A stretch of DNA of 13,683 bases from Anaerolineaceae bacterium (GTDB taxonomy: Bacteria; Chloroflexota; Anaerolineae; Anaerolineales; Anaerolineaceae), in contig JACZIY010000433.1 in NCBI GenBank assembly GCA_014860845.1, positions 1 to 13,683 of the forward strand, given 5' to 3'. Below, one piece after another: positions 1 through 13,683 of this stretch. The notes below the pieces were generated by a model that saw only the letters and a list, made by a program, of their open reading frames with translations, was not told the origin of the DNA and made no database searches. The position numbers were made by a program, and so were the translations under genes. The first letter of the stretch is position 1. Every line of letters starts with the position of its first letter.

Positions 1-833
1 GTATAGTTCTATTTCTAGTTGTGCCGATTATTCTTTCCATCTACTTCAGTCTTACCCAATACGATTACGTCAGCAAACCCGAGTTTATCGGTTTTCAAAA
101 CTATACAGAAGCCTTAAAAAACGACCCCCTTTTCTGGTACACATTGAAAATCACGTTTGTTTTCACGGCATTGTCTTTACCGTTGGAATTCATTCTTTCC
201 TTTGGAATAGCATTATTACTTAATTTTCGTGGTCGAGGCTTGAATGTGTTTAGAACTTTATTTTATCTTCCTTCAATCCTTCCACCAGTTGCCGTATCCA
301 TACTTTGGATCTGGATCTTGAATCCCAAATTCGGTATTCTCAATCAAGTTCTTAAGGTATTTGGTATTACTGGACCTGCATGGCTGTTTGATCCTAAATG
401 GGCATTATTTGCCCTCGTGATCATGAGCCTGTGGGGATTTGGAAGAGGGATGATCATCTATCTGGCTGGATTACAAAATATTAATTCCGAGTATTTCGAT
501 GCAGCGAAAGTCGATGGAGCAAATTTTTTCTCGATGTTTTCAAAGATAACAATTCCTCTGATGTCTCCCGTCATTTTTTTCAACATCATTATGGGAATTA
601 TCGGCTCTTTTCAGGTTTTCGCGCAGGCTTTCATCATGACAGGCGGCGGTCCGGTCCGGTCCACCCAGTTCTATATGCTCTATCTCTACCAAAATGCTTT
701 TAGGTTCTATAAAGCCGGTTATGCATCAGCATTAGGCTGGCTCCTGTTTCTCATCATCGTAGCCATATCATTGCTGGTAATACGCTCATCATCGGCCTGG
801 GTTTATTATGAAGGTGAACTTCGGGGTAAATAG
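1..833 (+). CDS. Sugar ABC transporter permease, MalF/UgpA type (5' truncated)
   Basis: Inner-membrane permease of a carbohydrate ABC importer; with the next gene it would form the membrane channel. The frame is open from the first base of the window, and the codons before the GTG at 21 encode more hydrophobic residues, so the true start lies upstream. About 270 residues are visible after that GTG against a family norm near 290-300, so roughly 20-25 are missing. About six membrane segments are visible, including an N-terminal one leading into SLTQYD, typical of this family. The EAA loop that contacts the ATPase is clear at about residues 157-183 counted from the GTG, with DAAKVDGA followed by KITIPLMSP. 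The second permease starts two bases after the stop, so the two are co-transcribed. The substrate cannot be read from the sequence; the context suggests an oligosaccharide or glycoside. Confidence 0.93.
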   Translation, partial: IVLFLVVPIILSIYFSLTQYDYVSKPEFIGFQNYTEALKNDPLFWYTLKITFVFTALSLPLEFILSFGIALLLNFRGRGLNVFRTLFYLPSILPPVAVSILWIWILNPKFGILNQVLKVFGITGPAWLFDPKWALFALVIMSLWGFGRGMIIYLAGLQNINSEYFDAAKVDGANFFSMFSKITIPLMSPVIFFNIIMGIIGSFQVFAQAFIMTGGGPVRSTQFYMLYLYQNAFRFYKAGYASALGWLLFLIIVAISLLVIRSSSAWVYYEGELRGK

Positions 834-835
834 AT

Positions 836-1705
836 ATGCAAAAAAACAATCGCTTCCCAACAATTGGCAGCCTTAAAAGGCAAACAAAAAACAAGATTCC
901 TATTTATCTTTTGCTCACGATAGGCGGAGCGATTTTCTTAATCCCATTTGCCTGGCTTTTATCGACGGCATTGGGAACTGCAGAAGATGCGGTTCGGGTA
1001 CCACATAATTTCTTCCCATGGCCTCTTCACTTCGAGAATTTTGTGAATGCCTTTGCTTCTACAAAATACCTGGGTTACCTGATGAACACCATAATTGTTA
1101 CTTCTTTAGGCGTATTAGGGAACCTGGTTTCTGTATCATTGGTGGCATATGGATTTGCCAGGATGCGATTCCGCGGCCGGGATGTTCTATTTTTCATACT
1201 ATTGATCACAATGATGATTCCTGGACAAATTCTTTTAGTTCCAAATTTCGTCCTCTTTAAGTGGCTGGGCTGGTACGACACCTTGCTCCCTCTATTTGTT
1301 CCCCAATGGTTTGCTGTCAATGCTTTTGGCGTTTTCTTATTACGTCAATTTTTTATGACAATCCCGATGGATTTCGATGACGCCGCGCGCATTGATGGAG
1401 CCAGTTCATTCAGGATCTACTGGTCTATTCTCCTTCCTCTTTCAAAACCTATCCTGACGACATTGGGGGTGCTAAGTTTTCTACTTCATTGGAATGATTA
1501 TATTGGACCTTTAATCTACATCCAAACACCTTCCAAGCAGACTTTCGCTTTGGCATTAGCTTCATTGCCCAGCCAATACTATACAAATTACCACGAAGCA
1601 ATGGCTGCAGTTTTAGCTTATGCATTACCCTGCATTATCGTATTTTTCTTAGCCCAAAAAAACCTATTACAAGGATTATCGATGACTGGATTGGGCGGAA
1701 AGTAA
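836..1705 (+). CDS. Sugar ABC transporter permease, MalG/UgpE type
   Basis: Second permease of the carbohydrate importer (COG0395-like), 289 residues, which is full length for the family. After a basic N-terminus of about 20 residues there are six predicted membrane segments, beginning at about 22-44, and a periplasmic stretch at about 50-75. The EAA loop lies at about 179-205 with DDAARIDGAS and then ILLPLSKPIL. The ATG is two bases after the upstream stop, with a GGGG-containing ribosome-binding site inside the end of the upstream gene, which indicates translational coupling. No ATPase subunit is present in the window; such systems often share a MsmK/UgpC-type ATPase encoded elsewhere. The gene is followed by 38 bases and then a catabolic gene on the same strand. 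Confidence 0.95.
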   Translation: MQKNNRFPTIGSLKRQTKNKIPIYLLLTIGGAIFLIPFAWLLSTALGTAEDAVRVPHNFFPWPLHFENFVNAFASTKYLGYLMNTIIVTSLGVLGNLVSVSLVAYGFARMRFRGRDVLFFILLITMMIPGQILLVPNFVLFKWLGWYDTLLPLFVPQWFAVNAFGVFLLRQFFMTIPMDFDDAARIDGASSFRIYWSILLPLSKPILTTLGVLSFLLHWNDYIGPLIYIQTPSKQTFALALASLPSQYYTNYHEAMAAVLAYALPCIIVFFLAQKNLLQGLSMTGLGGK

Positions 1706-1743
1706 TTAACTTTATCCATTTTCTTGTTTCAAAGGAGCTCAAC

Positions 1744-2583
1744 ATGGAAATTGGTTTTTTAACCTGGTATTTCAAACAGACACAGCTGGAAGAGTTATTC
1801 AAATGGGCTGATGCTAATGGTTTTTCAGGTATCGAACTTGATGATTGCCCGGACGACCTTGATTTTGTAAAAAAAATAATTTCAAAATATCCGAGGGTTA
1901 GGATCTTTGCTTTAGGTCGCGCTCGTAACTTTCTATTTGGAGATAACGAGGATCGAAAAGCTGTAGCTTCACTTCTAACCCGGGATATCGAAATTGCTTC
2001 TGAATTGGGGATTGGTGTCATTAACATTTTTGCAGGTAAAGATCCCAACAAATCGATTGAGGATAATCTCAAACTATTCCAGGATGTCTTCACCCCCCTT
2101 GCAATCCATGCCGAGAAACATAAGGTCTACCTTGCGATGGAAAATTGCGCTCAACGAAACTGGTGGCCTACTGGTGGAAACCTGGCACATACTCCAGAAT
2201 TGTGGCGGAAACTCTTCGACTTGGTCCCTTCAAAGCATATTGGATTGACCATCGATCCTTCTCACTTCATCTGGCAGCGGATGGACTATCTCAAGGCAAT
2301 GAAAGAATTCGGTGATCGTATCTATTGGGCTCACGCGAAAGATTGTGAAGTTCATCAAGATATCCTTGCTGATAGAGGTATTTATGGTGAAAATTGGTGG
2401 CATTACCGACTACCTGGATGGGGAGAGATGAACTGGGCAGGGTTTTTCACGATATTGCGGGAAATTGGTTACACCGGTCCAATCGGCATCGAACACGAGG
2501 ATCGTTATTGGAACAAGAACGACGAAGAAATAAAACACGGTCTGAAAATGGCTAAGAATTTTTTGAACAAATTCGAATATTAG
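1744..2583 (+). CDS. TIM-barrel sugar isomerase/epimerase (AP endonuclease 2 fold)
   Basis: Predicted cytoplasmic metal-dependent enzyme of the xylose-isomerase-like TIM-barrel superfamily (PF01261), 279 residues, a usual length. The metal/catalytic positions are visible: E133 in AMENC, D171 and H174 in IDPSH, H197 in AHAKD and E250 in GIEHED. The YRLPGWGEMNW stretch near 221-231 is the conserved late-barrel segment of sugar isomerases/epimerases. The start is supported by AAAGGAG at 1731-1737, six bases before the ATG. The family covers ketose epimerases, inosose isomerases or dehydratases (IolE/IolI type) and the eliminases of 3-keto-glycoside pathways. Lying two genes from a Gfo/Idh/MocA dehydrogenase, it may act on an oxidised sugar made by that enzyme. 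The exact reaction is not determinable here. It is not XylA, which is a separate gene further on. Confidence 0.88.
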   Translation: MEIGFLTWYFKQTQLEELFKWADANGFSGIELDDCPDDLDFVKKIISKYPRVRIFALGRARNFLFGDNEDRKAVASLLTRDIEIASELGIGVINIFAGKDPNKSIEDNLKLFQDVFTPLAIHAEKHKVYLAMENCAQRNWWPTGGNLAHTPELWRKLFDLVPSKHIGLTIDPSHFIWQRMDYLKAMKEFGDRIYWAHAKDCEVHQDILADRGIYGENWWHYRLPGWGEMNWAGFFTILREIGYTGPIGIEHEDRYWNKNDEEIKHGLKMAKNFLNKFEY

Positions 2584-2593
2584 GAGAACCAAT

Positions 2594-3640
2594 ATGAAAA
2601 GAGAACGAAAACTACCGTCAGACCGTCCATTAAAGATCATCCTTATGACCCATGTGGAAGGAGATGAATCAGAACCAGAGGGAAGCCCACCTTGCGGAGA
2701 TCTTACCTATCAGACAGGAGGATTGCCGGAACCCGGCCAAAAATTAGATTATTGCACTTATGAGATCGATGTATCTGGAACCGAATTGATGCATGAGACA
2801 TTGCAATCTTTTTCTGACACATTGGGAAAACCTCCAAGACTCTTTATTGAACCTGTCGGAAGTTATTGGCACACCGAAGGGGACTCAAAATATGGTGGAA
2901 AACTTTTCAGGAAATATGATTATTTATCATTTGGCTGTGAGTTTGGGATCCAAACACACGATATCTATTACGCAGGAACTGGCTATTGTTGGTATGCCTC
3001 TCCACCAAATCCCGGAGGTATTTGGAGAAGGATGGCAGATATGCATTGCTTTGCGGAACGTGTTCATATTAATGGAAGAAAAGTAAATGGCGGATTAACA
3101 TATACTGGTGGTCATAAAAACGTGTCTCCGCCAATGGATTCCAAGGAAGCAGAATACTATATTGATCACACCGCATATACGTTAGGATACAGGGTTTCAT
3201 TTGAGGATTTTGACGGACATTGGCAGGGAAGACCAAAAACGATTAATCCCGATTGCGCCTGCCCATATGCCTATGAAGCAGATTATGGTGATGGAGTTCG
3301 CCTATTAAAGATAGACTTTAACGGGATGATTACAGCAGATTCACCGCGAAACACCCCGCGCAGTGAACAACCAGATGAAGCCTTGGCTCGATTAGACCGG
3401 ACAGTTGAGGCGCAATTAGCTGATAACGATCCAACCCACCTGTATTATTTCGCAACAACCTTCCACTCCAATGTATTTTGGATCGATCATAACCTTACTA
3501 AAAACGGTGCGCCGCTTCTTCGCGAAGGGGCTGGATTAAAGAATTTCATGGATGGAGTTCAATCACGAGAGAACTCAGGAGTCAATATCGAATTCATTAC
3601 TCCCAAAGATTTATTGAACGAATATCACTTAATCCAATAA
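2594..3640 (+). CDS. Unidentified 348-residue protein, possibly polysaccharide-deacetylase fold
   Basis: I do not recognise this family with certainty. It has no signal peptide or membrane segment and is rich in Cys, Trp, Tyr and His, so it looks like a cytoplasmic enzyme. Three features recall NodB-type polysaccharide deacetylases and related seven-stranded barrels: an early strand ending in MTHVEGDE (H20, E22, D24), a central EFGIQTHDIYY (E116-Y126) where that family has its EIG-x-H motif, and a late strand YYFATTFHSN (H291) where it has a catalytic His. The match is imperfect, and the canonical TFDDGP motif is absent. AGGAG at 2582-2586 overlaps the upstream stop and sits seven bases before the ATG. 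Its place between a sugar isomerase and a sugar dehydrogenase suggests a step on the same carbohydrate. A catalytic role is inferred; the deacetylase idea is only a hypothesis. Confidence 0.75.
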   Translation: MKRERKLPSDRPLKIILMTHVEGDESEPEGSPPCGDLTYQTGGLPEPGQKLDYCTYEIDVSGTELMHETLQSFSDTLGKPPRLFIEPVGSYWHTEGDSKYGGKLFRKYDYLSFGCEFGIQTHDIYYAGTGYCWYASPPNPGGIWRRMADMHCFAERVHINGRKVNGGLTYTGGHKNVSPPMDSKEAEYYIDHTAYTLGYRVSFEDFDGHWQGRPKTINPDCACPYAYEADYGDGVRLLKIDFNGMITADSPRNTPRSEQPDEALARLDRTVEAQLADNDPTHLYYFATTFHSNVFWIDHNLTKNGAPLLREGAGLKNFMDGVQSRENSGVNIEFITPKDLLNEYHLIQ

Positions 3641-3667
3641 ATATACTTTTTCATAGCCTGGAGATTA

Positions 3668-4792
3668 ATGATGACTGTTGAGAAAAAAATAAATATCGGG
3701 CTAATCGGTAGTGGTGCAATAACTCGTTTCATCCATGTGCCCGGTTTCCAATTATGCCATGAGGTAGAGGTTTTGGTTGCTTGCGATGCTGATCAGGAAA
3801 TTGCACAAACCACTGCTGAAATGTTCGGTATCCCCAATGTGACAACAGATTTTCGAGAGGTAATCACTGATTCAAGGATCGACGCTGTGGTCATTGCCAC
3901 CCCCAATTATTTACACCGGCCGATCTGTTTGGAAGCATTTGAAAATCGAAAAAATGTATTAAGTGAAAAACCATTGGGTTTAACCCTGGCTGAAAGCAAA
4001 GAAATGTTAAAAGCTGCAGAGGAGTCAAATCTCATCCATGCTGTTTCGTTTGTTTATCGTTTTGCACCAGCGATGCGCTATTTGAAGTATTTGATTGATA
4101 GTAAGACACTAGGAGAGATCCGTCATTTTCGCGCCCAATATCTTCAAAAAGTCCCGGATATATTCCTTGGTTGGCGCTCTAAAAGCGCGCAAGCAGGTCG
4201 TGCCGGAGCACTCGGCGATATCGGTCCTCACCTCATCGACTTCGCACGTCTCCTTGTAGGAGAAATCAAGGCTGTTTCCGGGTGGACAAAGACCTTTTTA
4301 CCCCAAAGGCAAGTTGCTGGTACAACTCGTTATGAGGATTGCGATGTAGATGACGCTTCAGGCTTTATCACAGAATTTAGTAATGGCGCGACAGGTGTGT
4401 TTGAAGTTTCTCGCTTAGTTCCTGGACGCGGTTGTGGAAAAAACGAGTTTCAATCAGTAGAGGTTAATGGCACTAAGGGTAGCGCAATCTATCATCTTCA
4501 GGATCCATTCAATCTTCAGGTTTTCCCCGGTCATCCATATAATGATGGTCACTTGTATTCCATGCCAGTTCCTGAAACATTTCTAAAAGAGGCAGAAACA
4601 TCGCGACGGGTAATCGACCACGAGTGTAATGTCGGATTCCGTTATGATCAGGCATTCTCCTTCATTCAAGCCATCCGGGGAAATCCCCAGTGTTTATTAC
4701 CCACATTCAAAGATGGAGAACGTTCTCAGGCTGTTGTAGATGCTGTGCTTGAATCTGCTGCTAGTCGCAAATGGGTCACAGTCTCTGATTGA
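3668..4792 (+). CDS. Gfo/Idh/MocA family oxidoreductase
   Basis: NAD(P)-dependent sugar or cyclitol dehydrogenase, 374 residues, cytoplasmic. The N-terminal Rossmann fold shows the GLIGSGAI nucleotide-binding turn (residues 11-18), then VVIATPN at 74-80 and the family signature SEKPLG at 99-104 with K101. The C-terminal domain contains GDIGPHLID (183-191), where D184 and H188 are the usual catalytic pair. Two in-frame ATGs occur at 3668 and 3671. GGAG at 3660-3663 is four bases from the first and seven from the second, so the second may be the true start. The gene lies 27 bases after the unidentified 348-residue gene. Known activities in this family include inositol dehydrogenase, glucose-fructose oxidoreductase, and 3-oxidation of glycosides. 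The TIM-barrel isomerase nearby makes a ketosugar or 3-keto-glycoside route plausible, but the substrate is unknown. Confidence 0.93.
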   Translation: MMTVEKKINIGLIGSGAITRFIHVPGFQLCHEVEVLVACDADQEIAQTTAEMFGIPNVTTDFREVITDSRIDAVVIATPNYLHRPICLEAFENRKNVLSEKPLGLTLAESKEMLKAAEESNLIHAVSFVYRFAPAMRYLKYLIDSKTLGEIRHFRAQYLQKVPDIFLGWRSKSAQAGRAGALGDIGPHLIDFARLLVGEIKAVSGWTKTFLPQRQVAGTTRYEDCDVDDASGFITEFSNGATGVFEVSRLVPGRGCGKNEFQSVEVNGTKGSAIYHLQDPFNLQVFPGHPYNDGHLYSMPVPETFLKEAETSRRVIDHECNVGFRYDQAFSFIQAIRGNPQCLLPTFKDGERSQAVVDAVLESAASRKWVTVSD

Positions 4793-4901
4793 AAACAACG
4801 ACTCTCGATTGGCAATTAAATTGATAAAAAATCTGACAACAAACAATTCCTCCAATTTGAGCATTGCGTTCGATTACAGAATTCACTGAGGAAAGGTCTC
4901 T

Positions 4902-7676
4902 ATGGGAAAAGACAATAAAAAAAACCACCATCTGGGTGTCTATCTTGGCAAGTCCTCTGTGGCTGAAGGAATTAATGCAATCAAGTTTTTAAGTAACGGG
5001 AATAACCACCCAGATACTCAAGAGAAATTTTCAGTACTTGTCGTTCCTCACACGCACGCTGACCTTTGCTGGCCAGAAATACCCGATTATTGCATTGATG
5101 CCTGTATGGCATGTATCGATGATCTGCTTCGATTCCAACAACTTTCTCCCGGATTTCGTTTTAGCATGGAACATGCTTTTTACTTGCGGATATACCTTGA
5201 GAGAAATCCAGAATCGACAGAAAAAATCATCGACTTGATAAGACGAGGTTTTTTTGAGTGTGGTGCTTTTTACCTGGGACCAACCGAATTGACAGCAGGT
5301 GGGGAGAGTCTGATCCGAGAGTTGTACCTTGGAAAAAGGTGGCTTAAGGAGAAATTCAATATTGACGCTAAAGTTGTGTGGAATGTGGATTGTCCCGGTC
5401 ACACTATGCAATTGCCCCAGATTTTAACCCGTGCCGGGGTCCCTTATTTTGTTATCTGGAAAGAATTTAATTTATTTGAACATGATTACAGCGGATATAA
5501 CGGTCCTTGTTTTTTCCGATGGGCAGCCCCAGATAAGAGTGAAGTTGTGACTTGTTTTACCCCTGGAGGTTATGGAATTGGAAGACAATTAGGTTTTCGA
5601 GAACCCTTTAACGTACTGATGGACCGCCTCCCCGGTTTCTTAAATGACGTTGCAGGTCATTTGAATCATTATCAGCTCCCGAAAGTCATCTTGATCGCAG
5701 ATGGAACCGATATTGAGAGACCAACTCTGGATGTGACAAAAAACATCAAACAATGGAATGAGAAATTCAATCATCCGAAGATGGAATTAGTAACAACCGA
5801 AGAGTTTTTCGAGCGAATTGATCGAACTTCTTTACCCCAAATAAACGGTGAAAGCCCAAATTGGTGGGACACGATTGGATCATTTCAGAATGAGCGGGTG
5901 ATGGGCGAAAGACAGTTAGAGCCCCGCCAGGCAGCCGCGGAAGCATTTAGCGCAGTAGTATCAATCCTAAATAGTAGTTATGAACATCCCAATAGCCTGC
6001 TTGAAAAAATTTGGGAAAACCGCCTCTTCGCTAATGAACATAATTCTGGCGGACGCAACGGAAACATTTCAGATGCAGTGAAGTTAACCAAGATCAAATC
6101 TGCGCGTGTTCTAGTGGATAATGTATTAAACCAATCCCTAGCGGAGATCGCCTTAAATGTAAACTTTCAGCAAACAGGGATTCCTGTCCTGGTTTTCAAC
6201 TCAATCTTATGGACTCGAAAAAATGTCATTGAGATTGAGTTGCATTTTCGAAGGGGAGAATTTAACTCGATAAAAATCGTTGATCGTCATGGCACAGAAA
6301 TACCATACCAGGAAAAATCGCTTACCTGCTACGACGATAACTCCATCAAGGATTGTGTCCTTCTTGTCTGCATGAAACTACCCGCGCTAGGGTATGAGAC
6401 ACTTTACGTAATTAATGAAAAACCACAGGAGATTACCAACCAGATCTTTAGCAGAGTTAATAAACATACATATGAAAATCAGTGGTTCGTTTTCTCAGTA
6501 GATCCGGTATCCGGTTATCTGGTCAGTATTAAAAATAAACTCAATGGAGAAGAACTACTATCATGTTCTGAGTTTCATTTTGGTGAACTGGTCACCGTTG
6601 AAAACACCGCACATGATGAAGATGAACACCTTACTGGAAAATATTGGAGAAGTAGTCAATACAGGTCAAAAGCCTGGCTCTCCGAAAATGGTCCTATTCG
6701 AGCAGTTTGGACTGTGGAAGGAGACTTTAAAGGGTGTTTCCGGCGACAAAATTTCATTTTCTATCGAGATCTTCAAAGGTTCGATATTGAGAGTGAAATT
6801 GAATGGCATGGTGAAAAAGACCTGCAATTAATGCAATCCTTTCCATTTGTTTTCAACAATGAAACCAAATTGGATTATGGCGTTCCCTTTGGGCATTCCA
6901 GATATCTTGCCGAAAATCCTAGCTGGACGAAGATCCATCCAAGTATCAGGGGTGTGCGCGATTGGTTGCATGTAGGAGGAAAACAAGCTGGCATAACTCT
7001 CGCGAGCGAGGTCATTCCCTTTGAGTTCAGGAATCGCATCAAGTCGATTAACCAAGAAATGCTCGTGCAACCGATCCTGATCAAAACAACTTATAGCTGT
7101 CATGATCACCTGGAATTTCTCAGAAAATTGAATCTGGACACGATAAACATTCAAGCAAAAGAAACTGGTACCAAAGCAATTCGACCAGATAATCCTGAAG
7201 TTCGATGGGATCAAACTGGTAAACACATATATAAATTTAGTGTAATGATTGATTCAGGTAGTTTTGATCCTGTCGCATCATCCCGTTTCGGTATAGAATT
7301 TCAAACTCCCTTCTTCTATTTTATTCATTATGAAAACTTGGACCAGTTTCCTCATTTACAAATGGAGCAAGTAAAAAGCCGCCTCAGTAATCTTGATCGC
7401 AATTTACCCGAAAGCATTTGCTTTATCGCGTGTGAGAGTATGAACGTAATCCCAACCTGGGTCAAGAAAGCAGAAGATGGTGAAGGGATTATCGTACGAT
7501 GCTACGAAGCCGGTGGGTTACAGGGAAAAACCACTTTTGAAACTTTCCTTCCCCTGACAGAAGCATACGAGACCGATATTATCGAATATGACATAAACAG
7601 GTTGGAAATTGTGAATGGCAGGTTAGCAACCGATCTTGAACCTTATAAGATCGAAACTGTTCGAATAAAATTCTAA
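4902..7676 (+). CDS. Glycoside hydrolase family 38 alpha-mannosidase-like protein
   Basis: Retaining, zinc-dependent exo-glycosidase of family GH38, 924 residues. A 44-residue leader that does not look like a signal peptide precedes the first catalytic strand VVPHTHADLCW (47-57), in which H52 and D54 are expected zinc ligands. The nucleophile and zinc ligand is D163 in WNVDCPGHT. ADGTD at 266-270 may carry the acid/base, and H380 in NEHNSGG is the likely fourth metal ligand. A middle helical region at about 330-375 and a long beta-rich C-terminal half complete the usual GH38 plan. With no export signal it should act in the cytoplasm on imported sugars. The start has a strong GAGGAAAGG at 4888-4896. 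The gene is preceded by 109 bases without a convincing promoter or terminator, so it may extend the upstream operon. The family assignment is firm; true alpha-mannoside specificity is inferred. Confidence 0.93.
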   Translation: MGKDNKKNHHLGVYLGKSSVAEGINAIKFLSNGNNHPDTQEKFSVLVVPHTHADLCWPEIPDYCIDACMACIDDLLRFQQLSPGFRFSMEHAFYLRIYLERNPESTEKIIDLIRRGFFECGAFYLGPTELTAGGESLIRELYLGKRWLKEKFNIDAKVVWNVDCPGHTMQLPQILTRAGVPYFVIWKEFNLFEHDYSGYNGPCFFRWAAPDKSEVVTCFTPGGYGIGRQLGFREPFNVLMDRLPGFLNDVAGHLNHYQLPKVILIADGTDIERPTLDVTKNIKQWNEKFNHPKMELVTTEEFFERIDRTSLPQINGESPNWWDTIGSFQNERVMGERQLEPRQAAAEAFSAVVSILNSSYEHPNSLLEKIWENRLFANEHNSGGRNGNISDAVKLTKIKSARVLVDNVLNQSLAEIALNVNFQQTGIPVLVFNSILWTRKNVIEIELHFRRGEFNSIKIVDRHGTEIPYQEKSLTCYDDNSIKDCVLLVCMKLPALGYETLYVINEKPQEITNQIFSRVNKHTYENQWFVFSVDPVSGYLVSIKNKLNGEELLSCSEFHFGELVTVENTAHDEDEHLTGKYWRSSQYRSKAWLSENGPIRAVWTVEGDFKGCFRRQNFIFYRDLQRFDIESEIEWHGEKDLQLMQSFPFVFNNETKLDYGVPFGHSRYLAENPSWTKIHPSIRGVRDWLHVGGKQAGITLASEVIPFEFRNRIKSINQEMLVQPILIKTTYSCHDHLEFLRKLNLDTINIQAKETGTKAIRPDNPEVRWDQTGKHIYKFSVMIDSGSFDPVASSRFGIEFQTPFFYFIHYENLDQFPHLQMEQVKSRLSNLDRNLPESICFIACESMNVIPTWVKKAEDGEGIIVRCYEAGGLQGKTTFETFLPLTEAYETDIIEYDINRLEIVNGRLATDLEPYKIETVRIKF

Positions 7677-7714
7677 TAATATACCAATCAAAGAAAGACA
7701 AAATTTAAGGGTAA

Positions 7715-9037
7715 ATGAGAAATCTAAGTTCTTCCATTGCAAAGGTTAGAAGCTCCTTCTTTGGGGAGAGAACAGTACTTCCGTCGCAATTATCTGGAAC
7801 TTTCCATAAGGCGATCTTATTTCAAATTTGCATTACAGCTGGTTTCGAAGCGATTTTTGTTTTAGGTGCTTTATCTGCTCAAAGGATCACAGGAACAGAT
7901 CAGATCTTTGGATTAGCTTCAACAACTGCGTTCGCCTTCGGCCAGTTAGCAATTTCACTACCCACTGGAAGATGGATGGATAGGTACGGTCGAAAGCCAG
8001 TTCTTTTTTCTGGAGCACTGGTGGAAGCAACTGGTTTATTCCTGATTGGAATCTCAATACCAATTGAGTCTCAATTGCTTATTACACTTGGACTATTACT
8101 TCTGGGATTGGGTAGCGGGATTGCTCAAATGGCCTATCTTATTGGAGGAGACATTTTCCCTCCTGCAAGGCGAGCCGAGGGACTGGGAATCATGAATAGC
8201 GTCATTGCAGTCGGAGTGGTTTTAGGACCTTACCTTGTTGGATTGATAGGCGATGCGGCGACTGCAATAAATCTCGACAAGCTTTCAACTCCATGGTTTG
8301 TTATGGGTGGGCTTGTAGCCATAGCCGCATGGATAATGCACCACCTGAAACCTGAACCCCTTGAGGTGGCACGAAAACCATATCAATATTATCCTGAGAT
8401 CAAAAGTGAATTCAGTACGCCAGAATCAAATCACGGAAGCTTGAACCAGAGATCAAAATCAGGTTTATTTACATATCCGATGGTGGCATCGATTGGGATC
8501 ACATTTTGTTTCCAGGGAACAAGAATGTCCATTATCCCATTATTAACTTACATACTTGTCGCAAAGGGATATTCATTAACTACTGGCGCAATAATGGTCG
8601 CAGCGATGGGGTTGGGAATGGTTGTTGCTGCCATACCATCTGGTCACCTAGGGGATCGATTGGGAAGAAAAAAGCCACTATTAATGGCAGGGGTAGTCGG
8701 TACATTGACCGCCGCATTGATCCCACAGGTTGCTTCAGCAGTCTTAATATTTATTTTATTATTCTTAATGGGTGCAGCTTTTATTACGATGTTGACAATG
8801 ACGCGAGTAATCATAACAGATGTCACAAAAGTTGACCAGCGTGCTTCCGCGATGGCGTTCTCTATGATTGCTGTTGGCATTGCAGTAGTAATTTTCCCAA
8901 CTGTCGCCTCCTATATTCTCAACCGATGGGGTTGGTCAAGCATCTCATGGTTAAGTGTAATCCTCATGAGCCTCGCTTTGCTGCAGATTTTTTTCTTGCA
9001 AGAAAAAGGAGTTGGCGGCTGGAATCTCGAAGAGTGA
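7715..9037 (+). CDS. Major facilitator superfamily transporter
   Basis: Integral membrane permease of 440 residues with about 12 hydrophobic segments in two halves. The MFS signature between helices 2 and 3 is present in both halves: GRWMDRYGRK at 85-94 and GHLGDRLGRKK at 310-320. The hydrophilic stretch at about 212-250 is the usual central cytoplasmic loop. The N-terminal 30 residues are polar and probably cytoplasmic. AAGGG at 7707-7711 lies only three bases before the ATG, so initiation may be weak. It follows GH38 by 38 bases on the same strand, and no terminator is visible between them. The substrate cannot be assigned: uptake of a sugar or sugar derivative fits the neighbourhood, but drug-efflux relatives share the same motifs. 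Confidence 0.9.
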   Translation: MRNLSSSIAKVRSSFFGERTVLPSQLSGTFHKAILFQICITAGFEAIFVLGALSAQRITGTDQIFGLASTTAFAFGQLAISLPTGRWMDRYGRKPVLFSGALVEATGLFLIGISIPIESQLLITLGLLLLGLGSGIAQMAYLIGGDIFPPARRAEGLGIMNSVIAVGVVLGPYLVGLIGDAATAINLDKLSTPWFVMGGLVAIAAWIMHHLKPEPLEVARKPYQYYPEIKSEFSTPESNHGSLNQRSKSGLFTYPMVASIGITFCFQGTRMSIIPLLTYILVAKGYSLTTGAIMVAAMGLGMVVAAIPSGHLGDRLGRKKPLLMAGVVGTLTAALIPQVASAVLIFILLFLMGAAFITMLTMTRVIITDVTKVDQRASAMAFSMIAVGIAVVIFPTVASYILNRWGWSSISWLSVILMSLALLQIFFLQEKGVGGWNLEE

Positions 9038-9100
9038 TTTTATGACACAACCGAGCATATGGCTCTTAAGGTTTTTCGAAAGATGGATTGTAGGACTCGT

Positions 9101-9123
9101 AGGTTATCACAATTTTATAACCT
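9101..9123. repeat. Stem-loop after the MFS gene
   Basis: AGGTTAT at 9101-9107 and ATAACCT at 9117-9123 form a perfect 7-base inverted repeat with a 9-base AT-rich loop, 63 bases after the MFS stop. No run of T follows on the plus strand, so it is not a standard intrinsic terminator. It could be a transcript-stabilising hairpin, a weak terminator or a binding site. Confidence 0.4.
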
Positions 9124-9249
9124 CCTACACCCCTTGCGGATAAATAAACTGTTGGATAAATTGGCAAAACCTATTCGACGTATAATCTTGAGAAGAGATA
9201 AAAACGTTCATAAAGGATTAAGCGTTACGTAAAAAATCGAACCTAATGG

Positions 9250-9266
9250 ATATACAGAAAGTATAT
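9250..9266. promoter_or_regulatory. Candidate operator: 6-base inverted repeat at the -35 position
   Basis: ATATAC and GTATAT flank a 5-base spacer AGAAA. The repeat ends 16 bases before the TATAAT at 9283-9288, exactly where a -35 element would sit. A protein bound there would block or replace contact with sigma factor, which fits a xylose-responsive regulator. No regulator gene is in the window, and the palindrome is AT-rich and short, so chance is possible. Confidence 0.35.
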
Positions 9267-9347
9267 TTAGCTAGACCCTTTCTATAATAGGGGAATGATA
9301 AATAAACAAAGGAACAAATACTTGAAAATAAATTAAGGATAAGTCAA

Positions 9348-10652
9348 ATGGAAAAATATGCGAGTATTAAAAAGGTCGTGTACAATCCCAAATCCGATTC
9401 CCTGTTTGCTTTCCGCTTCTATAATCCAGATGAGTTGATAGCAACCAAATCCATGCGAGATCAGTTAAAGTTTGCTATGTGCTATTGGCACACAATAGAT
9501 GCAGGCGGTACAGATATGTTCGGTAACGATACCATGGACAAAAACTTTGGGAAAACAGGTGTCGAGCAGTATCAGGCCAAAGCAGATTTTGCTTTCAACC
9601 TAATGGATAAGCTGCAGATCGATTATTACTGTTTTCATGATGCCGATATCGCACCGCAGGGTGTAACTCTTTCCGAAAGCATAAAAAATCAGAACGAGAT
9701 GATCGATTATCTCGAGGTTCTGCAAAAGAAACACAGTAAGAAACTCCTTTGGAATACAGCCAACAATTTCAGTGATAAAAAATTCATGGCGGGTGCAGCG
9801 ACGAGCCCTAATGCAGAAGTTTTTGCTTTAGCCGCTGCTAAGGTTAAATGGGGTCTTGACACAGCAAAACGACTCGGAGCAGCAGGTTATGTTTTTTGGG
9901 GTGGCAGAGAAGGTTACGACACATTACTTAACACCGATATGGGATTCGAGATTGATAACCTTGCACGCTTCATGCAAATGGCAGTGGATTACAAGCATAA
10001 AATTGGGTTCACCGGTGCGTTCTATATTGAACCCAAACCAAAGGAACCCACAAAACACCAGTATGACTTCGACACAGCAACCTGTATGAATTTCCTTCGA
10101 AAAAACGGTCTCGAAAACGAATTCAAATTGAACATTGAAGCAAATCATGCAACCCTTGCAGGTCATACATTCCAGCACGAACTGCGTTCTGCTTTAATTA
10201 ATGGTGCTTTTGGTTCGATCGATGCAAATCAGGGAGATTTATTCCTTGGTTGGGATACCGACCAATTCCCAACGAATGTTTATGAGACAACACTGTGCAT
10301 GTATGAAGTTCTGAAAGCTGGTGGATTCACTACTGGTGGATTGAATTTTGATGCAAAAACACGACGGCAAAGCAACACATTTGAAGATATTTTACTCTCA
10401 TTTATTGCCGGGATGGATAGTTTCGCACTCGGACTCCGATTGGCAGACAAACTGATTCGAGACGGACGTATAGATGAATTTATCAAAGCTCGTTATGCAA
10501 GTTACAACAATGGTATTGGTAAAAAGATAATTGAAGGAACAACCAATTTAGATGAGCTTTACACTTACGCACTTGCTCACGAAGATATTCAAGTTGATAG
10601 CGGACGGCAGGAGTACCTCGAGTCTGTATTAAACGAAGTTCTTTTTGGATAA
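9348..10652 (+). CDS. xylA: Xylose isomerase
   Basis: Converts D-xylose to D-xylulose in the cytoplasm, normally as a metal-dependent tetramer. The 434-residue length is that of the long (class II) xylose isomerases. All expected active-site residues are visible at a constant offset of four from the Escherichia coli enzyme: H97 and D100 in FHDAD, E228 and K230 in YIEPKP, E264 and H267 in NIEANH, D292, D303 and D305 in GWDTD, and D335 in LNFDAK. The start follows AAGGAT with good spacing. It is the first gene after the 310-base regulatory gap and is directly coupled to xylB, so the two probably form an operon from the promoter near 9283. No truncation or missing catalytic residue is seen; the enzyme should be active. 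Confidence 0.98.
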
Positions 10653-10656
10653 GTAT

Positions 10657-12069
10657 ATGTATCTAGGTGTCGATTTAGGAACCTCCTCAATAAAACTGCT
10701 TCTGGCAAACCATGAAGGTACTATTGTCGATTCAGCCACTGCAACATATCCCAATTACTTCCCTCAACTAAATTGGTCAGAGCAAGAACCCTCAGATTGG
10801 TGGAATGGATTTTTCCATTGTCTTAAAGTTCTCAGCCATCAGAACGATCTGAAGCGAATTGAAGCATTGTCTTTTTCGGGACAAATGCATGGACTAGTGG
10901 TTTTGGATGAGAGAGATGAGATCATCCGTCCAGCGATCCTGTGGAATGATGGTCGAACAAACGATGAATGCGAATATCTCAATAACTTTCCGGTCGTGGA
11001 CTGGACTGGCAATATCGCGCTAACTGGCTTCACTGCTCCAAAAGTGTTATGGCTTAAAAAACACGAACCAGAAAACTTTGCACGTATTAGCAAGATAATG
11101 CTGCCTAAAGACTACCTGGTATACCGCCTTACTGGGAAGCATGTAACGGATGTTTCAGATGCCTCAGGTACATTGTTCTATGATCTGGAAAAGGGTTGCT
11201 GGTCCCAGGTAATGCTTGATATCCTCGGCATCCGAGAAGATCAATTGCCAATGATTCATGAAAGCCTCGACATAATTAGTATGGTTCACGCAGACTGTGG
11301 CCTTTCGCTGGATACCAAGGTCATCATCGGAGGTGGCGATCAGTCGATGGGTGCAATTGGCACAGGTACAGTAAATGATGGCCAGGTGTCCATCTCACTG
11401 GGAACGATTGGAGTTCTGTTTATCAACTCTGAAAACTATCCTGCAGAGAATCATGGACGCCTTCATGCTTTCCGGAACGCGAATGGTCAGTTCCACTTGA
11501 TGGGAGTGACACTAAGCTGTGGGGGATCAATCAAATGGTGGATCGAAGACGTGCTTGGCCAGACTGATTACGATTCGTTATTTGCAGGCATTTCTACCCT
11601 GCCGATCAATGACTTGATCTTTCTTCCATATTTAATGGGAGAGCGCAGCCCTATCAACGATCCTAGTGCAAAAGGCATCTTTTACGGACTGAATGCTTCC
11701 TTAGGACAAAAACAGATGACCAAGGCTGTCATTGAGGGTGTATGTTTCTCTCTACTTGATTGTCTTAAGACAGCAAACGAATGTGGAATTATGTTGAGTG
11801 ACGCCCGTGTGATAGGAGGTGGCTCAAAATCACCTGAATGGTTACAATTACTTTCTGATGTAACCGGCCTTACACTGCACACGATTCAAACCTCAGAAGG
11901 CGGTGGTCTTGGTGCGATAATCCTTGCTATGACGGCTTGTGGGAAATTTTCGTCCATTGCAGATGGATGTGTTAGTTTGATCCACGAAGACAGAATCTTC
12001 ATTCCAGATAAAGTACGAACAATCTCCTATGCGGAAAAATTCAAGAAATACAAAGATATTCACCTATAG
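10657..12069 (+). CDS. xylB: Xylulokinase (FGGY family)
   Basis: Phosphorylates D-xylulose to xylulose 5-phosphate with ATP, delivering it to the pentose phosphate or phosphoketolase route. I chose the ATG at 10657, four bases after the xylA stop, because it gives MYLGVDLGTSS, which aligns with the start of known XylB. An in-frame TTG at 10645, inside xylA, would add four residues. The 470-residue protein has the N-terminal phosphate loop DLGTSSIK, the sugar-binding SGQMHG (74-79) with M77 and H78, WNDGR at 96-100, and the catalytic base D228 in GGGDQS. The C-terminal domain has GERSP and the adenine-pocket GGGSKS. The ribosome-binding site is weak (GGA at 10647-10649), so translation probably depends on coupling to xylA. 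No intrinsic terminator is evident directly downstream. Confidence 0.97.
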   Translation: MYLGVDLGTSSIKLLLANHEGTIVDSATATYPNYFPQLNWSEQEPSDWWNGFFHCLKVLSHQNDLKRIEALSFSGQMHGLVVLDERDEIIRPAILWNDGRTNDECEYLNNFPVVDWTGNIALTGFTAPKVLWLKKHEPENFARISKIMLPKDYLVYRLTGKHVTDVSDASGTLFYDLEKGCWSQVMLDILGIREDQLPMIHESLDIISMVHADCGLSLDTKVIIGGGDQSMGAIGTGTVNDGQVSISLGTIGVLFINSENYPAENHGRLHAFRNANGQFHLMGVTLSCGGSIKWWIEDVLGQTDYDSLFAGISTLPINDLIFLPYLMGERSPINDPSAKGIFYGLNASLGQKQMTKAVIEGVCFSLLDCLKTANECGIMLSDARVIGGGSKSPEWLQLLSDVTGLTLHTIQTSEGGGLGAIILAMTACGKFSSIADGCVSLIHEDRIFIPDKVRTISYAEKFKKYKDIHL

Positions 12070-12500: not shown

Positions 12501-12705
12501 CCCAGTTAAAATTATTAAAAATATGATACTTATTGAACTCTTTAACCGCCATATCTAGCGATAGAGAGACTACTTACCCCCATATATACTGGTTAAACAA
12601 CAATTCTCACAGCTTCGAATCAGTAGGTCACTTATTGAATTTGTACGGTAAGTGAAATTTTATGAGTCAAGTATGGGAGAAGAACAATATAATTATCAAA
12701 AATGC

Positions 12706-12734
12706 TTGACTGTTCGATTGTAAGAGGTTAATAT
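12706..12734 (+). promoter_or_regulatory. Strong sigma-70-type promoter
   Basis: TTGACT at 12706-12711 and TAATAT at 12729-12734 are separated by exactly 17 bases, making this the best promoter match in the window. Transcription would start near 12741 and run right through the tRNA fragment to the terminator at 12897-12919, giving an RNA of about 175-180 bases with no evident protein. It might be an original tRNA-type promoter, a promoter from the inserted DNA, or that of a small RNA. Confidence 0.6.
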
Positions 12735-12844
12735 TCTGAAATTGATCAACTATCGCTGCGTGCCGGGCAAGCAAGATCCAGCGTTCGTTGGTTTAGCTGA
12801 TTTGCAAAGCCCGCCGCACAAATGGCACGGATTCAGGAGCATTA

Positions 12845-12888
12845 CTCATAACCCGGAGGTCAGTGGTTCGAATCCGCTCCCCGCTACC
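12845..12888 (+). pseudogene. 3' fragment of a tRNA-Met(CAT) gene, probable attachment-site remnant
   Basis: The sequence fits tRNA positions 32 to 75. The anticodon loop CTCATAA is at 12845-12851 (anticodon CAT at 12847-12849). The 3' anticodon stem CCCGG is at 12852-12856 and the variable loop AGGTC at 12857-12861. The T arm has stem AGTGG (12862-12866), loop TTCGAAT (12867-12873) and stem CCGCT (12874-12878). The acceptor strand CCCCGCT is at 12879-12885, followed by discriminator A and CC; the next base is T rather than A. The bases before the loop, CATTA, cannot pair with CCCGG, and I find no AGCGGGG- or CGCGGGG-like 5' end nearby, so the 5' half is missing. The CCC beside the loop favours the initiator type. 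A clean break at the anticodon loop is typical of integrase attachment sites in tRNA genes. Confidence 0.85.
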
Positions 12889-12896
12889 TGAAAAAT

Positions 12897-12919
12897 GACA
12901 CTCGAAAGGGTGTCTTTTT
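12897..12919. terminator. Bidirectional intrinsic terminator
   Basis: GACACTC (12897-12903) pairs with GGGTGTC (12908-12914) around a GAAA tetraloop, with one G-T pair, and TTTTT follows at 12915-12919. On the minus strand the same stem is followed by ATTTTT. It lies nine bases after the tRNA fragment, so it is probably the original tRNA terminator, and it would also end minus-strand transcripts coming from the right. Confidence 0.9.
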
Positions 12920-12932
12920 ATTTAATTGATCT

Positions 12933-13256
12933 CTATGTGTTTATAAACTCACTTGACTCAGTTTTTTCTAAGAGACCAGCTCTCACACCCGGTTTTTCTT
13001 TTATGGATAAGAACAGTACCAGCTCCAGAATAAGGTGCCAGATGCCTCCTATCAGGTCAGATGGATCATTTTCTATTAGTGGGATTGCCTGACCTAGCAA
13101 GTGATAAGCGAGCAGTTTGGAGGTGGCATTGGTTTAAGTATGCCCATCTGCTGGTAGCCAAAAACTGCCGATGATTTGGTAGCTCAGGATAAAAGGATAC
13201 TCAGCTATCACAATGGCTGCCAGAATGAACTTCCACTCACTTAATAATTGTTCCAT
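12933..13256 (-). pseudogene. Small membrane protein frame interrupted by one in-frame stop
   Basis: Reading the minus strand from the ATG at 13256-13254 gives 40 codons (MEQLLSEWKFILAAIVIAEY and onward), then TAA at 13136-13134, then 66 further codons in the same frame to TAG at 12935-12933. Both parts read like real protein: hydrophobic segments at about codons 10-35 and again near codons 76-88 (IGGIWHLILELVLFLSI), then a charged tail (KEKPGVRAG). It looks like a protein of about 107 residues with two or more membrane segments, broken by one nonsense change. No family is recognised. No good ribosome-binding site precedes the ATG. It lies 39 bases after the stop of the neighbouring minus-strand gene, in the same frame. 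Alternatives are a sequencing error, or two short peptides. Confidence 0.5.
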
Positions 13257-13295
13257 TGAAAGAGATCTGCTGAGACCCTTTCTTATGGATTTGTT

Positions 13296-13683
13296 CTACT
13301 TTATTTCACTGGTGATCGACAAAGCTTCTGCCAACAGGTCTTCAAGCCAAATCCCTGGCTCAAACAGCTGGCTTTTCCAATCAGGATCCAGGCGGTCCAG
13401 CAGTATTGCCTGGACCATACCAGTGTAATAGAACCTGCTTTCGTCCTCATCTCGTGCCATACGCTTAAGCTGTTCGACTTCACGCTTCCAGCGATTATCG
13501 AATTTTTTGTACTGATGAAAACGTGGGTCATTTAGTATCTCTTCAACCAGCACATACCCGCTGCTTGCTTGGGCAAGACGATACACACTCAGTTCGGCAT
13601 AACGACCGATCCCTTCAACCCATTCCCTATGGCGTTCAAACTCGATCAGGTCTGCGCTCAATCCTGCCGTTACGCGGCGTGAT
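13296..13683 (-). CDS. Unidentified protein, C-terminal part (5' end outside window)
   Basis: The minus-strand frame is open from the window edge to TAG at 13298-13296, giving about 128 residues. A TTG at 13661 could in principle start a 121-residue protein, but upstream codons continue in frame (RRVTAG before it), so truncation is more likely. The sequence is soluble, highly charged and helical, with many Arg, Glu and Trp: EFERHREWVEGIGRYAEL near the start, a central RFYYTGMVQAILLDRLDPDW, and WLEDLLAEALS near the end. No signal, membrane segment or known motif is visible. It has somewhat higher GC than the preceding non-coding DNA. With the tRNA fragment between it and the sugar genes, it may belong to the flanking chromosome. 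I cannot assign a function. Confidence 0.7.
   Translation of the reverse strand, partial: SRRVTAGLSADLIEFERHREWVEGIGRYAELSVYRLAQASSGYVLVEEILNDPRFHQYKKFDNRWKREVEQLKRMARDEDESRFYYTGMVQAILLDRLDPDWKSQLFEPGIWLEDLLAEALSITSEIK

Follow-up and report, generated by a model that had tools for sequence, protein, structure and literature searches.

A displaced 3′ half of the initiator tRNA gene as the probable right boundary of an integrated element beside sugar genes in an Anaerolineaceae contig

Gene content of the locus and the tRNA fragment

The window, as the whole 13,683-nucleotide stretch of DNA analysed here is called, carries transporter, oxidoreductase, glycoside hydrolase and xylose genes on the plus strand, followed by a predicted promoter, a conserved module, a tRNA fragment and a terminator-like hairpin (Table 1). 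The 348-aa protein encoded between the TIM-barrel and Gfo/Idh genes (2594-3640) has neither a Pfam nor an NCBIfam match. GC content offers no contrast at the boundary, being 0.41-0.44 in the genes on the left and 0.41 and 0.49 on the right.

Table 1. Features of the window, with the evidence on which each is named
Feature	Position	Strand	Basis
Two ABC transporter permeases, probably for sugar, the first cut by the contig end; presumed cargo	3..1705	+	First PF00528; second named from translation
AP_endonuc_2 TIM-barrel protein, 348-aa protein, Gfo/Idh/MocA oxidoreductase; presumed cargo	1744..4792	+	Profile scans
Glycoside hydrolase family 38 (GH38); presumed cargo	4902..7676	+	Profile scan
MFS transporter; presumed cargo	7715..9037	+	Profile scan
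xylA (xylose isomerase) and xylB (xylulokinase); presumed cargo nearest the boundary	9348..12069	+	Profile scans, search of relatives
Outward-facing sigma-70-like promoter, predicted (TTGACT, 17, TAATAT)	12706..12734	+	Sequence pattern
Conserved right element end (type A end), subtype ending GGAGCATTA	12741..12844	+	Alignment to ends in relatives
Displaced 3′ part of initiator tRNA-fMet gene (att site, chromosome side)	12845..12888	+	Base reading, ARAGORN, alignments of relatives
Terminator-like hairpin (12897-12914) and T-run, after the fragment	12897..12919	+	Sequence pattern
C-terminal 128 aa of a protein without Pfam family; right flank, presumed chromosome	13296..13682	-	Profile scan, family search

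The fragment is the 3′ part of an initiator tRNA-fMet gene, running from the anticodon loop to the acceptor end without the 5′ half. Its first base is the start of the anticodon loop CTCATAA (12845-12851), with a CAT anticodon; there follow the 3′ strand of the anticodon stem, CCCGG (12852-12856), whose CCC we take to be a mark of initiator tRNA, a T-stem of five pairs, AGTGG with CCGCT, one of them T-G (12862-12866 with 12874-12878), and the acceptor 3′ strand (12879-12885), then A and CC. Compared with 51 loci of 356,926 bases, the fragment is identical over 43 of 43 bases to intact fMet genes at L109/L112 (one site) and L120, matches 18 further intact fMet genes at 42 of 43 bases and has 11 more matches at 88-93%, with best E-values of about 1e-14 to 1e-16. 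ARAGORN finds no whole tRNA in the window. An Rfam scan of the window with E up to 1 returns no tRNA; its sole match, the snoRNA sR28 at 724-796 on the minus strand, scores a weak 21.3 bits against a gathering threshold of 39, lies within an ABC permease gene and is almost surely due to chance. The first-pass annotation had described a truncated tRNA-Met 3′ end that begins at the anticodon loop, has a T arm and an acceptor strand and lacks the 5′ half; the bases are as it said, the tRNA can now be named an initiator, and the downstream terminator that it reported is present as a pattern.

A viral origin of the fragment or of the module beside it is disfavoured: the 43-base tRNA pattern and the exact 23-base module pattern each had 0 matches among viral contigs. 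One IMG/VR viral contig (L152:11040-11110) carries what looks like a complete tRNA sharing the 31-base 3′ core. Plasmid similarity to window positions 12600-13300 is limited to 1 of 72,556 records, through a 79-base match beginning at the tRNA fragment.

The element end and its counterparts in relatives

The sequence to the left of the fragment recurs elsewhere. Together with the tRNA half (12741-12887, 147-166 bases aligned), the window end is 85-90% identical to eight ends (L089, L108, L116, two in L117, L122, L126 and L128) and 74.7% identical to a ninth (L120). The fetched loci hold 46 distinct type-A sites: the module runs directly into CTCATAAC at 34, and the other 12 bear a substitution, an inserted hairpin or signs of decay. 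Used alone as a query, the module was detected in 33 of 400 genomes from the order, a handful of these matches being short, and in 1 of 396 from the class, through 21 bases; judged from these searches, the module seems confined to the order. The T-arm is readable at 29 of the 46 sites and shows ten stem types; all five pairs form in nine of these and two pairs in the remaining one (L172), so that most fragments keep a pairing T-stem of varied sequence. The window's subtype, GGAGCATTA, is found exactly at six other sites, with parA upstream at none of the six (one with only 875 bases visible); parA does lie upstream of 12 other type-A ends, among which are those that close the 77-kb G038 and 126-kb G067 elements on the far side.

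Other kinds of end occur at the same tRNA. By eye, a promoter-like site can be recognised in types B and D, roughly as far from the core as in type A. Type C (L087, L090) has an integrase-like gene that ends almost at the tRNA core, only a few bases away, which places a recombinase at the right end. The G042 end (L113:12360-12485) lacks the 104-base module, and its promoter-like site immediately precedes the core. Palindromic insertions of ~20-40 bases interrupt the modules of L116, L176, L182, L183 and L201 and also the core or tRNA half of L156, L157, L158, L166, L175, L176, L182, L183, L186 and L201, with several falling inside the anticodon loop, a pattern suggestive of REP- or MITE-like hairpins building up at attachment ends. 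The opposite, left end, ~180 bases long, exemplified by L187:11537-11720 and common to the short segments described below, was found in 25 of 147 family genomes (E up to 1e-5, many matches being short); among the flanks listed, most begin with a terminator-like hairpin.

These 147 genomes of the family were reached via G001, the genome of the best XylB match, and most are probably incomplete metagenome-assembled genomes (MAGs), so that the 52 without an fMet match mean little. The intact fMet gene is single-copy in 93 of the 95 that do have a match, G119 and G124 having two. A 31-base pattern matched 101 of the 147, and at least 12 genomes, by our own reading of the matches listed, carry two same-strand copies on one contig. 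Eleven such two-copy genomes were fetched; by ARAGORN's calls, only one of the two copies is intact in G042, G071, G103, G090, G067 and G068, and none is intact in the stretches of G080 (5′ side masked), G101, G139:C34, G140 and G145:C35. In G001 itself the one match to the fragment is the intact fMet gene (L081:1471-1543), followed by a tyrosine recombinase (PF00589, 9.6e-33) read from 75 bases past the tRNA. By tblastn, relatives of this L081-type recombinase occur in 17 of the 50 other loci, with best matches 35-98% identical (partial in L086); they lie before the core in L087 and L090 and after the tRNA or fragment in the rest, beginning about 20-85 bases after it in the larger elements. 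A recombinase comes immediately after the fragment in L118, L122, L125 and L126, so that elements stand in tandem there. Larger elements also carry a second, diverged recombinase (~377 aa, 22-24% identical to the first), convergent to the fMet-adjacent integrase (L125:4148-5281, L118, L127 and L216:3211-4341).

The crossover point is visible in a pair of genomes. Left of the core, G139 and G127 are identical over 2,000 of 2,000 bases, as they are over the 17-base CTCATAACCCGGAGGTC; right of the core, 25 of 29, 86 of 104, 146 of 184 and 223 of 318 columns match. Identity up to the core and divergence after it locate the crossover in the 17-base core, and a switch at that point is, on this alignment, the expected outcome of site-specific recombination. 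Should G139 and G127 be MAGs, the identity, but not the switch, could be an artefact of shared contigs being binned into both. By analogy, crossover in the window would be expected within the first 17 bases of the fragment, 12845-12861. Empty and occupied sites can also be paired, to judge from short flanks: the flank of the intact fMet gene in G096 matches that of the fragment in G097 (87% over 46 bases), where other sequence follows the intact gene, and the intact-gene flank in G043 matches the fragment flank in G044 (89% over 98 bases). The window's own right flank, whose hairpin may be the terminator that belonged to the host tRNA gene, has no match among the flanks of intact fMet genes, the nearest sequences being the fragment flanks of L090 (88% over 78) and L108 (85% over 80), tRNA part included. 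The protein encoded on this flank is present in 25 of the 147 family genomes; as a mark of the empty site it was discarded, since no fMet site lies in 20 fetched loci (~1.5 kb each side) or in a longer G079 stretch.

Target, orientation, end sequence and a crossover within CTCATAACCCGGAGGTC are thereby established in the relatives by comparison of their loci. The first-pass annotation had placed at the fragment the boundary of a tyrosine-recombinase element extending to the left, and the relatives bear it out on each point: an intact fMet gene and a displaced fragment in the same orientation enclose the element, a recombinase directly follows the tRNA or fragment in the larger elements, and the conserved end abuts the left of the window's fragment. 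It had proposed a comparison with a relative lacking the insertion; among the relatives themselves, short flanks pair such sites in G096/G097 and G043/G044, and the window's own right flank finds no such partner.

The window boundary is, with high confidence, real and of a known kind, and 12741-12888 is very probably the attR left when a tyrosine recombinase inserted an element, which extends leftwards, into the initiator tRNA-fMet gene. An integrase would join the element core to the fMet gene, leaving an intact gene on the left and the displaced 3′ half on the right; the right end would consist of the ~104-base module, accompanied by an outward promoter-like site, and would meet the host's tRNA 3′ half and terminator at the anticodon loop. 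The integrase would be encoded beyond the window, in a more leftward part of this element or, acting in trans, in another element at the same tRNA, and the int promoter might switch between states as in ICEKp1. The element may even lack the integrase of its own that would be expected, by analogy with comparable short segments in relatives that have none.

Two other origins for the fragment and its module fare poorly against this attR reading. A chance resemblance, or a plain tRNA pseudogene left by a broken duplicate, has virtually no prospect of being right given the 43-base identity, the exact start at the anticodon loop, the common element end directly left of the fragment and the recurrence of the junction in relatives. 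That the 104-base end and tRNA half form a gene for a structured small RNA and not a DNA attachment arm is highly improbable, although the promoter-like site that can be read by eye in types A, B and D, ~105 bases ahead of the core, and the terminator on the core's other side would suit such a gene, as would the 1 of 41 predicted pairs that changes on both sides and the one type-B sequence that folds better than its shuffles (z -3.29). Against these stand the consensus fold of 35 distinct modules (z +0.98, with 84.5% of column shuffles at least as stable) and single type-A sequences at z -0.56, -0.84 and +0.50; consensus folding with column shuffles does not support a module with a conserved RNA fold, and single folds are mixed. 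The promoter-like site is a prediction: seven sigma-70-like sites were found in the region where 3.7 are expected, and a site in the same place occurs in 26 of 37 distinct type-A upstreams as compared to 4.9 in base shuffles, which is no independent test, the upstreams being related. The spacer of the window's site is unlike the common form.

Segments, cargo and competing readings

If the attR reading holds, the sugar genes (3-12069) are likely cargo of the element, being directly inside its end with no second site to interrupt them. The best XylB match in the genome-collection scan comes from a Chloroflexi MAG (L001, 78%); over its 21 kb only xylAB is common to the window at the DNA level (window 9336-12060, 77.5%), and no other window genes were found around it. 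XylA at ~85% occurs in 2 of the 147 family genomes, with ~61% forms in others, and GH38 has only 23-30% matches, in 7 of the 147. This patchiness fits cargo and is no proof of it. As a counter-case, the first-pass annotation had named close relatives that keep this sugar locus and the fragment in one conserved chromosomal order, and no such arrangement was found. It had also stated that the window holds no integrase, in agreement with a profile search and tblastn; neither attL, an intact tRNA nor a recombinase was found in the window, where the contig ends 12.8 kb left of the boundary.

Relatives hold site-bounded segments of two size classes. Twelve closed short segments with a site on both sides measure 0.8-12.9 kb: G147:C18 (6.0 kb), G090:C216 (2.8), G139:C34 (8.3), G145:C25 (11.9), G138:C8 (12.9), G101:C49 (7.6, 3.1 and 0.8), G127:C9 (9.7 and 6.0), G144:C183 (9.0) and G141:C61 (5.6). 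They lie on nine contigs among 11 genomes searched for PF00589 (76 matches listed). Because that search lists nothing on G147:C19, where a 65-residue recombinase remnant lies upstream of a type-A end, the closed segments were also searched by tblastn with five of the recombinases found here, at E up to 0.01; neither method finds a recombinase in any of the 12. On G138:C8, a partial PF00589 match lies outside the segment, at 66.9 kb. By our own reading, both sites are unaltered in only two of the 12, G139:C34 and the 7.6-kb segment of G101, and the other ten have at least one site with a substitution, insertion or decay, so that many short segments may be immobile. One segment recurs: the 6.0-kb segment of G147, beside the intact tRNA, aligns to the G127 segment between its second and third sites in pieces at 74% (left end), 86% and 89%, is bounded by sites in both genomes and has no recombinase in either by PF00589 or tblastn; the last aligned piece continues ~130 bases into the next left end.

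Ten closed larger segments span 22-126 kb, and eight of them start at the left end with an L081-type recombinase (G071 first, G103, G140:C21, G145:C35, G080, G067, G068 and G038). The G042 segment (25 kb) has a diverged recombinase-like frame (21%), and the second G071 segment (34.5 kb, far site decayed) shows no recombinase within the 3.8 kb seen. Proteins encoded in the larger-segment arrays include ParA, DnaB-like, DnaA_N and actin-like proteins. Among the shorter ones, the G145 segment (L189:4914-16790, eight frames scanned) encodes an AraC-type regulator, an esterase, two ABC permeases, a solute-binding protein, GH3, an amidohydrolase and Gfo/Idh, a sugar operon that sits between two type-A ends. 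Elsewhere the cargo includes an alcohol dehydrogenase paired with a MalT-like regulator, or else TetR, acetyltransferase, PAD_porph and epimerase proteins; in G113, ABC-2 transporter, DegV and acyltransferase genes lie just inside an end of a segment that is not closed.

What the boundary encloses can be read in more than one way. It is clearly improbable that the old element is lost and only its right end survives, the sugar genes being ordinary chromosomal ones or otherwise acquired. Decay of the required kind does occur: relatives often have altered type-A sites (12 of 46), 10 of the 12 closed short segments have an altered site, the G147:C19 remnant implies that recombinases and elements also decay, and the spacer of the window promoter departs from the common form. 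The window end and tRNA half are nonetheless intact, with a T-stem that still pairs; this XylA type and GH38 are patchy in the family, and similar sugar genes lie in the closed G145 segment. Rather unlikely, though a real contender, is that a large (22-126 kb) element encoding its own integrase, and not an integrase-less cassette, houses the sugar genes. Eight of the ten larger closed segments have an L081-type recombinase at the left end, and the window cargo, at 12.7 kb or more, equals the longest short segment (12.9 kb), but the six other sites of subtype GGAGCATTA lack the parA that precedes 12 other type-A ends. The remaining reading takes the initiator tRNA gene of this Chloroflexota order as the head of an operon-cassette platform, at which tandem recombinase-less cassettes of ~1-13 kb, with conserved left and right ends of ~180 and ~105 bases plus the tRNA half, would be moved in trans by the integrases of larger plasmid-like elements at the same site, the xylose/GH38 locus of the window being one cassette. 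It is offered tentatively, at somewhat less than even likelihood, a rating lowered by the ten segments with an altered site and by the recombinase remnant. If the platform reading is right, uncultured sugar-using bacteria would swap whole sugar operons at one essential tRNA gene, through a conserved pair of ends and not through one recombinase per segment. The end sequences would offer a simple means of counting and dating these exchanges and of locating cargo in metagenomes.

Relation to known integrative systems

Islands targeted to tRNA genes are well known, and sublocation rules for tyrosine-recombinase integration within these genes were reportedly set out by Williams in 2002. Tandem recombinase-less cassettes at the initiator tRNA would be a variant of such islands; searches of an open-access library listed no paper on arrays of this kind at the initiator tRNA of this group, which is no proof of absence. 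Islands of tyrosine recombinases (Islander, PMC4383910; also PMC9897764) are described as having the tRNA restored at one end, a displaced 3′ fragment at the other and a crossover in the anticodon loop. The window has the displaced fragment at the far end, with the strand relation taken from relatives, and six relatives have the intact tRNA with the same 3′ half at the other end. The differences are that the initiator tRNA is the target here and that the short segments are recombinase-less and in tandem.

Additive flexible genomic islands, known from Methylophilaceae (PMC10872708) and from Alteromonas, where an island lies at a Met-tRNA with a duplicated 3′ end (PMC5217437), are likewise arrays marked by repeats of tRNA 3′ ends with variable cargo. 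Here, long conserved ends (about 180 and 105 bases) accompany the tRNA repeat. Tycheposons, outlined in one of these sources (PMC10872708) as cargo-carrying elements of 4-200 kb with a tyrosine recombinase at tRNA genes including Met, share with the window a tRNA border and, likely, metabolic cargo; they differ in phylum and in that the closed short segments here have no recombinase, and the likeness is one of description. For ICEKp1, ICEclc and ICEEc1, the source (PMC13023037) reports an int promoter that switches between states, and the outward promoter at the 3′ end and attenuating stem-loops between tRNA and int are points of likeness; here the promoter is a sequence prediction and also stands at the ends of recombinase-less segments.

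Integrons offer a further comparison for the cassette-platform reading. The recombinases found in the relatives match PF00589, a family that also covers IntI. The repeated site of the relatives is a tRNA 3′ half, and consensus folding of the module supports no conserved RNA fold. CALIN and integron cassette arrays (PMC11389934) share cassettes without an integrase, thought to be mobilised in trans, and differ from the present segments in the nature of the site and in that the latter hold several genes or whole operons. Should it exist, the platform at the initiator tRNA would be integron-like for whole operons, yet no integron.
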